From Mollicutes bacterium (GTDB lineage Bacteria; Bacillota_I; Bacilli_A; Izemoplasmatales; Izemoplasmataceae), in NCBI GenBank assembly GCA_003559235.1, contig PWME01000219.1:1-45070 (forward strand): DNA of 45,070 bases, written 5' to 3'. Below, in pieces: positions 33,216-37,041 of this stretch. The position numbers and the translations under genes were made by a program. The notes beneath the pieces were generated by a model. The model had not been told where the DNA came from and made no database searches. It was given only the letters and a program-made list of their open reading frames with translations. Within the stretch, counting starts at the first letter, position 1. Each line of letters begins with the position of its first letter.

Positions 33216-33247
33216 AGAAAAAACACGTACATGCTAACGTGTTTTTA
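33216..33247 (-). terminator. Terminator of the gdpP-rplI-dnaB unit
   Basis: AACACGT-TAGCATGT-ACGTGTTTTTTC, stem beginning at the dnaB stop codon. Confidence 0.8.
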
Positions 33248-34612
33248 CGTATCGGGAAGGTCACGGTCTTGTGATTCTGCGACCGCGCTCGGTGTTTTAT
33301 CTCTAAAACGACTGTATTGCTTTTTGAATATAAGTTTGAATCCTTTAGGGTTAATGGCCCCCGAGCGGTTTTTTGCGACCATAATATCGACTTCGTCTGT
33401 AAGGCTTTGATTTTCTTGTTTATAGTAATCTTCACGGAACAAAAACAAAATAACATCCGCATCTTGTTCAATCGATCCAGACTCTCTTAAGTCGGCTAAA
33501 ATAGGACGTTTATCATTACGATTTTCGACATTTCTAGAAAGCTGACTAAGCGCAATGACAGGCACTTTCAACTCGCGCGCCATCTCTTTCAATGTTCTTG
33601 AAATCTCTGAAACTTCTTGAACACGATTGTGTTGACGTTGTTCAGAACCAGACAACAGCTGCAAATAATCAATTACAACCAAATCTAAGTTCCCCTCTTG
33701 TGCAAGTTTACGGCATTTTTGCCTTAAGTCAGTCACTTTGACGGTACCCGAATCATCAAACAAAATATCGAGATGTCTTAACTGGTCGTTGGCCAATGAG
33801 ATTTGTTGCCATTCTGTCGGTTCTAAGTTCCCAGTTCTTAAATGTGAGCTTTTTACATTGGCTTCACTTGAAATCATTCTGCCAACCAGTTGATCTACCC
33901 CCATCTCAAGAGAGAAAAACGCAACAGTTGATTTATTGAGTCGTGCGACATTGGTCGCAATGTTCAACGCAAACGCACTTTTCCCCATCGATGGTCTCGC
34001 AGCGATGATATACAGCTCACTCGGTTGCAACCCGTAGGTATAAAAGTTTAACTCTTCAAACCCTGTGTCTAACCCAAGGAGTGTGCCTTGCGTATTTTTT
34101 GCTGTTTCAGTCTTTTCGATAACTTCTTTGGCAGCGTCTTTTAAGGTCACAAACTGCGATGTTCGACGGGCCGATGCAACGTTAAAAACTTTGCGTTCAG
34201 ACTCGTCAATATAGTCCGTCATATTCGCTGCTTGAAAACCTTGTTCCGCAATTTCTTTCGCCGCGTCAATCATTCTTCTTACGACCGCTTTATCCTTTAC
34301 GATATCAATGTAATGTTCGAGGTTAACCACTGATGGCGTCGTATCAGATAGTGCCAAAATATAATCTGTACCACCGACATCTGCCAATAGATTTTGCGTC
34401 TCTAAGCGGTTAATTAATGTCGTATAGTCGATGTCTACAGATTCTTTGTAAAGTTCTTGAATGGCTTTATAAATCGTTTTATGACTGCGCGTATAAAAAT
34501 CCTCGGTATCTAACCGGTCCAATATTGTTTTGATGGTATCTTGGTCAATAAACACAGACCCCAGTACATTTTGTTCGGCTTCATTGCTGTGAGGCGGCAC
34601 TCGTGTATCCAT
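33245..34612 (-). CDS. dnaB: Replicative DNA helicase
   Basis: MDTRVPPHSNEAEQNVLGSVFID, IIAARPSMGKSAFALNIATN, VVIDYLQLL; start 34612 after GGAGG. Confidence 0.97.
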   Translation of the reverse strand: MDTRVPPHSNEAEQNVLGSVFIDQDTIKTILDRLDTEDFYTRSHKTIYKAIQELYKESVDIDYTTLINRLETQNLLADVGGTDYILALSDTTPSVVNLEHYIDIVKDKAVVRRMIDAAKEIAEQGFQAANMTDYIDESERKVFNVASARRTSQFVTLKDAAKEVIEKTETAKNTQGTLLGLDTGFEELNFYTYGLQPSELYIIAARPSMGKSAFALNIATNVARLNKSTVAFFSLEMGVDQLVGRMISSEANVKSSHLRTGNLEPTEWQQISLANDQLRHLDILFDDSGTVKVTDLRQKCRKLAQEGNLDLVVIDYLQLLSGSEQRQHNRVQEVSEISRTLKEMARELKVPVIALSQLSRNVENRNDKRPILADLRESGSIEQDADVILFLFREDYYKQENQSLTDEVDIMVAKNRSGAINPKGFKLIFKKQYSRFRDKTPSAVAESQDRDLPDT

Positions 34613-34613
34613 A

Positions 34614-37016
34614 TTACGCCTCCAAAACAAGCAACTCAAACGTTGCTGTTACATCTTTATGAAGGCGGACGTCAATTGTGTGCGCACCAAGTTGTGCAAT
34701 CGGCTCTTCAAGTAGTATTTTCCGCTTATCTAAATCAATATCATGTTGTTCTTTCAACGCTTCCGCAATATGCTTAGCTGTAACCTTGCCATAAAATTTT
34801 CCGTTGTCACCAACTTTAACATATAGCTTTACCGCACGGTAATCAAGCCGCTCTTTAAGCTGTTTCATGTCTTCAAGGTGTTTTTGTTCAGCTTCAGCAG
34901 CTTTTTCTTTTTCTGCTTCAATCGCTTGTAAGTTTTCCGATGTCGCTTCAATGGCTTGTTGGCTCGTTAACAAATAATTGCCATAGCCTGGTGCGACGTC
35001 AATAACATCACCTTTTTTGCCTTTGTTTTTTAAATCCTTCTTCAAGATTACTTTCATCGGCTTTTCCTCCTTCACCTTTGTATCTAAAAAATCAATCAAT
35101 TGTTGTTTAACATCATCCAAAGCGTCGTTGTCAATTTGTGCTCCGGCATTGTTTAAATGGCCACCACCGCCAAAATGCTCCATAATAACTTGGACATTAA
35201 AGCCTTCTAAACTACGCGCGCTAATGCCCGTCTCATCACTTGAAATTTTTCCAAGGGCAAAGGCAGCAACCGTATTATCAATATCAAGTAAATCATCCGC
35301 TATCTGCGCAAGCATTGTACGATCGGGATTGTATTTATCAGGAACCACAATAATTGAAAACCGCTTATTATAAACTTCTGCCATACTCAATAACTCAGCT
35401 TGTATTTGAATATCTTTTAAACTTTTTCGCAATAGATTTTTAACTTTATAGGTGTCAGCACCATATTTTTTTAAGATTGCAGCCGCTTCAAGCGTACGGC
35501 TGCCCGTTCTTACCATAAAGTTGTTCGTATCAACCACAATCCCGCTATACATAATGGTCGCTTCAAATGGCGTAATCTCAACATCAACTTTAAACACATT
35601 AAGCATATCCACAATCAGTTCAGTGGTTGAAGAGGCATACGGTTCAATATAACGCATATCAGCGTCTTGCACTGCATCAGGTAACTGTCGATGGTGATCG
35701 ATAATCGCTTTAACTGGCGTTTTCTTCAATAATTTTTCACTGACAGCTTGTCCAACTGAGTGATGATCAACCATTATGAGCAACGTAGATGCATCGATGG
35801 TAGACAGTACCGTTTCTAAAGATACAAAATCTTCAAACAGTGACACATACTCATATTCCATCGATTTAAATATTTTCATCACAGACTTGGATAGTTCGTC
35901 TTCGTCAATAACAATAGCACCTTTTTTATCAAGCGCTTTAACCATCTTTAATACACCAATGGCCGCCCCAAGGGCATCAGGGTCAGGGTGCTTATGCGGC
36001 ATGATGATGACCGATTCAGCTGCAGAGATAAATCCTGCTAGTTTTTCTGCGTTAATGCGACTTGAAATACGTGTTCGTTTTTCACGGGCATTCACATTAG
36101 CACCAAAATATCGTGGTGTTTCACCTTGAATATTGACCACGATTTGATCGCCACCGCGTGATAATGCTAAGTTAAGCGCATCTTCTGCAGATTCACCAAG
36201 TTGCTTAAGTTGCATGTTCGCACATGCAAACCCACCAGACAACGTAATCGCAAGGTCTTCATCATTTGACACAGCTTTAATGTCATCACTAACCGAAAAC
36301 CCATTATCCATCGCTTTTTCTAAATCAACGCGATGCATAAATACGACAATCGATGATGCGCTAGCAGGTACGAAGTGATACCCACCGCGATCGGCCCATG
36401 CTTCAAGCGCCCCAAAAAGTTTTCCTTCCACAACGTTTTTTTCTTTCACATCAAGCACTTGAATGGCATCTTCAAAGTTATCTAGATGTAAAATTCCGAT
36501 ACAATCGGTTTTTGCATAATATTTATCTTTTAAGGTTTCGCGTTCTTCAACTGGGGTAATATACAGCATTTTTTGTAAAGCATCATAAATAATATCACAC
36601 CGGGTTTCAAGAATTTTAATCATAAAGCGCTCTTCACCAGCTTCAAGATAAGGTTTTAACTCTGGGTAAACCGTTGTGATACGACGCGATTCAAGCACAT
36701 TTTCAAACACATCTTTTGCTTGATCATTTGCGTAGATGACAACGTCTTTGTCATTGAGCATTACAACCCCAACAGGAAGATCTGCAAGCACTTTATCGCC
36801 CGCATCTGATTTTAATCGTAAATCCGTTCGCTTTTCTGAAATAAGTTGCTCAAGCCGATAAATCTTGCTTTTTTGTTTGCGCACGTGTCGCATGATAAAA
36901 AAGACACCCAGCCCTAATACGATGAGTGCAGACACACTAAAGACTGCCACAAACAAGAGATTATTGGCAACAGATAGCGGTAGTAAAAAGATTACGTCTA
37001 GTTTCAAAAGCGACAC
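34614..37016 (-). CDS. gdpP-rplI: Fusion of c-di-AMP phosphodiesterase GdpP (2 TM, PAS, degenerate GGDEF, DHH/DHHA1) with ribosomal protein L9
   Basis: Single 800-codon frame: TM helices, PAS-like VGVVMLNDKDVVIYAN, DHH motifs HKHPDPDALGAA/VDHHSVGQ/IIDHH/GGGGHLNNAGAQ, then a complete L9 (MKVILKKDLKNKGKKGDVIDVAPGYGNYLL...) from residue 654. The initiator may be a TTG near 37007. Confidence 0.93.
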   Translation of the reverse strand: MSLLKLDVIFLLPLSVANNLLFVAVFSVSALIVLGLGVFFIMRHVRKQKSKIYRLEQLISEKRTDLRLKSDAGDKVLADLPVGVVMLNDKDVVIYANDQAKDVFENVLESRRITTVYPELKPYLEAGEERFMIKILETRCDIIYDALQKMLYITPVEERETLKDKYYAKTDCIGILHLDNFEDAIQVLDVKEKNVVEGKLFGALEAWADRGGYHFVPASASSIVVFMHRVDLEKAMDNGFSVSDDIKAVSNDEDLAITLSGGFACANMQLKQLGESAEDALNLALSRGGDQIVVNIQGETPRYFGANVNAREKRTRISSRINAEKLAGFISAAESVIIMPHKHPDPDALGAAIGVLKMVKALDKKGAIVIDEDELSKSVMKIFKSMEYEYVSLFEDFVSLETVLSTIDASTLLIMVDHHSVGQAVSEKLLKKTPVKAIIDHHRQLPDAVQDADMRYIEPYASSTTELIVDMLNVFKVDVEITPFEATIMYSGIVVDTNNFMVRTGSRTLEAAAILKKYGADTYKVKNLLRKSLKDIQIQAELLSMAEVYNKRFSIIVVPDKYNPDRTMLAQIADDLLDIDNTVAAFALGKISSDETGISARSLEGFNVQVIMEHFGGGGHLNNAGAQIDNDALDDVKQQLIDFLDTKVKEEKPMKVILKKDLKNKGKKGDVIDVAPGYGNYLLTSQQAIEATSENLQAIEAEKEKAAEAEQKHLEDMKQLKERLDYRAVKLYVKVGDNGKFYGKVTAKHIAEALKEQHDIDLDKRKILLEEPIAQLGAHTIDVRLHKDVTATFELLVLEA
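35055..35072 (-). promoter_or_regulatory. rplI: Internal Shine-Dalgarno and ATG for free L9 inside the fusion
   Basis: Minus strand AAGGAGG-aaaagccg-ATG; 8-nt spacing, in frame at codon 654. Confidence 0.75.
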
Positions 37017-37041
37017 CTCATTATCGAATATTGCGTATCAT

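Follow-up and report, generated by a model that had tools for sequence, protein, structure and literature searches.

The stretch of DNA analyzed here (hereafter the window; 45,070 nucleotides from a Mollicutes bacterium of the order Izemoplasmatales) carries on its minus strand, between positions 34614 and 37019, a gene in which gdpP and rplI share a single reading frame. No stop codon of any kind interrupts the frame 34614..37016 (-), and gdpP thus runs, as an earlier note on this DNA had claimed, into a complete L9 with both L9 Pfam domains. The fusion proposed in that note stands, with a small change at its 5' end: TTG 37007 is a better start candidate than GTG 37016, as it is preceded at 6 nt by the Shine-Dalgarno (SD) sequence GAGGTG (37014..37019, -; -9.4 kcal/mol). 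The resulting gdpP-rplI ORF (34614..37007, -) ends at a TAA stop and encodes 797 aa, an assignment based on the open frame, Pfam and a match to the family NF011110. Residues 1-650 (35058..37007, -) comprise transmembrane helices and the PAS_GdpP, GGDEF_GdpP, DHH and DHHA1 domains in the order typical of GdpP, all over Pfam cut-offs, and the DHH catalytic residues D342, D344, D437, H438 and H439 are invariant among 33 fused relatives. This portion is predicted to be a c-di-AMP phosphodiesterase. The rplI (L9) domain (34614..35057, -) contains Ribosomal_L9_N (residues 651-695) and Ribosomal_L9_C (713-794), scores 124 bits against TIGR00158 (cut-off 58.6) and carries the rRNA-binding signature APGYGNYL. 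It is the sole L9 found in this genome, as a search of the assembly for L9 matches returned no second copy. The next gene in the operon-like run is dnaB (33245..34612, -), identified by Pfam and sequence, whose own SD (GGAGG, within 34612-34625, -) sits in the final L9 codons, extending the compact arrangement downstream.

The junction reads GTG AAG GAG GAA AAG CCG ATG AAA GTA ATC, which confirms the AAGGAGG, 8-nt spacer and ATG reported earlier (35072-35057, -). The ATG (35055..35057, -) is the predicted start of a free L9 of 147 aa (about 16 kDa), and the internal SD AAGGAGG (35066..35072, -) also codes for part of the interdomain linker KEEKP. In an AlphaFold model, DHHA1 closes with a helix that runs to residue 645; after a disordered stretch (646-648), L9 opens with a strand starting at M651. 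Since helix and strand nearly abut, the SD-encoded KEEKP makes up practically the whole linker, in agreement with the near absence of a linker noted before. The domains of this model are good (pLDDT 84) and the L9 domains are intact, but their placement relative to the rest is not trusted because pTM is 0.46.

The fusion itself is already known. The curated NCBI family NF011110/PRK14538 ("putative bifunctional signaling protein/50S ribosomal protein L9") has the same full-length domain order as the window protein, which bears out the earlier note's mention of GdpP/L9 fusions in some Mollicutes. The alignment of the window protein to NF011110 spans positions 54-834 of 838 and scores 610 bits, below the curated cut-off of 707, and an Acholeplasmataceae member reaches 1368 bits. 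The family name implies one bifunctional protein and is silent on a separate L9 product. A search of the open-access literature turned up no paper describing the fusion in Mollicutes or initiation of L9 from an internal site, and a paper on GdpP of M. bovis gives L9 (Mbov_0277) as a separate gene. A conserved dual output therefore appears to be undescribed.

Comparison of the junction among relatives, as the earlier note had proposed, revealed no separating stop within the window's order wherever L9 was matched: in the 58 of 61 genomes with an L9 match, every match is part of a long frame that also encodes GdpP, and the remaining three gave no match. Within the class, the fusion is fixed in eight related families (f1, f2, f3, f7, f12, f16, f18, and f22), which include Izemoplasmatales, Acholeplasma, Anaeroplasmataceae, and phytoplasmas; none of the other families sampled shows it. 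Among the fused records that carry a name are Candidatus Izimaplasma, Acholeplasmataceae, Haploplasma modicum, Anaeroplasmataceae, and phytoplasmas. Six short-looking frames (G047, G052, G060, G369, G333, and G389) run off contig ends on inspection and are still fused. Long L9 frames in two other places were rejected as artefacts: in G187 and G240 (L169, L170) a GC-rich frame is merely open upstream, and in L284 masked runs of N bridge L9 and DnaB.

The standard gene order gdpP-rplI-dnaB invoked in the earlier note is indeed found in Bacilli and Clostridia, with the same genes in the same order and the rplI SD often within the 3' end of gdpP. Unlike in the fusion, a stop at or near the rplI start separates the two proteins there. 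Specifically, in Bacillus, Paenibacillus, and Halobacillus types gdpP ends with a stop that overlaps the ATG of rplI (offset -4), and in many other unfused relatives the stop lies in frame directly next to that ATG (offset 0 or +3). Because unfused relatives show such arrangements of stop and SD, the fusion most likely arose by loss of a gdpP stop that abutted or overlapped the rplI start, by which the rplI SD, previously inside the gdpP 3' end, would have become linker-coding.

The internal start is conserved throughout the fused genes. All 167 fused rows have a start codon as L9 codon 1 (ATG in 159, GTG in 7, TTG in 1), the sole TTG being at L017:1498-1500, and a non-start codon was never seen there. 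In 23 further rows, mostly phytoplasmas, a start codon lies at L9 residue 1 or at most one codon away. The internal site of the window binds the anti-SD with -12.4 kcal/mol versus -9.4 at GdpP's own start, belongs with the window's strongest gene starts, and is matched in energy by none of the 20 other in-frame ATGs of the ORF. Across 53 representatives (<65% identity), the mean junction energy was -9.9 kcal/mol versus -7.5 after synonymous recoding with codons drawn from the same ORF, and none of 1000 resamplings was as strong as observed. Among about 29 in-frame NTG codons, the junction start ranked first in 44 of the 53, second in 8, and third in 1. GGAG occurs in codon phase 0 in 73 genes, where it encodes Gly-Asp/Gly/Glu, and in phase 2 in 58 genes, where it mostly encodes Lys/Gln/Glu-Glu. 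The use of two phases with differing peptides indicates that the nucleotides, and not the peptide, are conserved. The SD is thus selected beyond coding need at a conserved start codon, as expected of a gene within a gene, with the caveat that in close relatives it could persist partly by ancestry. The standard 16S 3' end (GGATCACCTCCTTT) is present in 8 of 10 related genomes; a search of the window's own metagenome-assembled genome (MAG) did not find the 16S 3' end.

Phytoplasma internal SDs are weak (-2.7 to -10.0 kcal/mol) and the start codon is retained. In the phytoplasma-like loci L303-L319 and L322 (genus g143) the SD has decayed and the start is kept, or has moved one codon (L305, L317). 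Because of these weak SDs, internal initiation is less certain in phytoplasmas; phytoplasma-like genomes may use a different initiation signal.

Outside phytoplasmas, the internal SD is absent only in G134 and G292, two genomes of one genus in f22, the family holding Anaeroplasmataceae-like junctions. In both, a second, free L9 gene preceded by an SD of its own (AAAGGAG) stands between the fusion and dnaB; the tandem duplications lie at L133:2556-3511 and L201 (G134:C47 and G292:C147). The internal SD energies of their fused copies are -1.1 and -1.4, and those of the remaining non-phytoplasma fused genes measured are about -6 or stronger. The two genomes form a sister pair (support 100/100), and the relatives among which they branch have SDs of -10.9 to -12.6. 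The loss is hence derived and happened once, so the comparison of SD loss with L9 duplication counts as one evolutionary event. The fused L9 has also changed in this lineage: its GYGNYL signature is replaced by NLANKL and the L133 tail no longer matches the L9 equivalog (NCBIfam, 1e-20), whereas the free copy retains a GYANHL form. Between the two species the fused tail nevertheless has dN 0.086 and dS 0.747 (dN/dS about 0.12), close to the values of 0.080/0.580 for GdpP and 0.117/0.868 for the free L9. A tail that is under purifying selection without its rRNA signature is probably useful to GdpP beyond ribosomal duty, at least there. This lineage would show a gene within a gene resolving into two genes, and it makes a role of the L9 tail for a c-di-AMP phosphodiesterase directly testable.

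Taken together, these comparisons make it very probable that the locus is an in-frame gene within a gene whose two products, GdpP-L9 and free L9, are both functional. Initiation at TTG 37007 would yield a membrane-anchored GdpP with an L9 tail, and initiation at the internal SD and ATG 35057 would yield free ribosomal L9, which would probably supply most of the L9 in 50S subunits. The L9 tail may in turn serve GdpP in regulation, oligomerisation or localisation. The sequences themselves show the anatomy of the locus, the retention of the start codon, an SD above the synonymous null and in two codon phases, its loss where a free L9 exists, and the purifying selection on the tail; that both proteins are made, and in what ratio, is a matter of inference. 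The dual output suggested in the earlier note gains support from the same comparative evidence.

An error of sequencing or assembly that removed a stop might be suspected in a MAG of 261 contigs, but the same fusion occurs in some two hundred other assemblies, single-contig genomes included; with its relatives all fused, this explanation is refuted, and its probability is practically nil. Alternatively, the full-length fusion alone could be made, its tail acting as ribosomal L9 and docking ribosomes to the membrane enzyme, with the SD as a relic. Such a reading would agree with the lack of any stop splitting the fusion, with the rRNA-binding signature retained in single-copy fused L9s, and with the intact L9 domains of the AlphaFold model. 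However, a relic would decay, whereas the start codon is kept in 167 of 167 genes and the SD exceeds the synonymous null. Moreover, the SD was lost in precisely the lineage that has a free L9 gene, and on stoichiometric grounds a signalling enzyme would need to be produced at ribosome level. A relic SD is ruled out by the null, the start-codon retention, and the duplicated lineage, and we regard production of the fusion alone as very unlikely. Two products would likewise result if the fusion were a polyprotein from which a protease frees L9, but the linkers vary by lineage (KEEKP, EGGEK, GGDSEP, VEGGNG) with no common cleavage motif, and cleavage requires neither start codon nor SD and leaves the SD loss after duplication unexplained, which makes it highly improbable.

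The converse possibility is that free L9 alone matters and the full-length frame is harmless read-through, leaving GdpP with a tail that has no role. The internal start could by itself account for L9 supply. Yet the last 8 codons before L9 have accumulated 172 nucleotide differences among 44 sister pairs and not one stop, versus about 12.8 expected under a simple estimate that uses no rate model and presumes stops to be otherwise neutral. L9 can be expressed with a stop at this place, as the unfused relatives show. The gap between none seen (in about 44-45 pairs) and the 12.8 expected is large, and the tail stayed under purifying selection after free L9 took over. The fused L9 tail thus seems to be selected for its own sake. 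Because of this selection, and because no stop ever separates the parts, the fused product, too, is probably functional, and we consider it unlikely that free L9 alone matters. A further reading, which we hold to be doubtful, takes the fused product as a translation-linked c-di-AMP enzyme, with the ratio of the two starts coupling ribosome supply to osmotic signalling. The L9 tail would then compete with or replace free L9 on some ribosomes, and either the 50S subunit would be brought to the membrane enzyme or the state of the ribosome would set c-di-AMP levels.

With two functional products encoded in one frame, the locus would belong to a known kind, since internal in-frame starts that yield a C-terminal domain have been described. 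Like GdpP-L9, Cas11/Cas11b from cas8/cas10d (PMC11899642) and RpnS from rpn (PMC10327210) involve a large and a small product of one frame, and in both, internal initiation yields the C-terminal domain as the small product. On the other hand, the small product of GdpP-L9 would be a core ribosomal protein, the large one would carry an unrelated membrane enzyme in addition, and the evidence here is comparative. If true, the sole gene of a ribosomal protein would, in a broad set of wall-less bacteria and their relatives, be the 3' end of a signalling-enzyme gene, an arrangement that has persisted while Izemoplasmatales, acholeplasmas, anaeroplasmas, and phytoplasmas diversified. Their proteomes and ribosome models would then be misread, because annotation pipelines report a single "bifunctional" protein and overlook the start of L9.

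The phytoplasma-like genome G362 carries two fused GdpP-L9 genes (C1:328029 and C1:454421) with equal scores and 874 aa each, perhaps reflecting a recent duplication or an assembly duplication.
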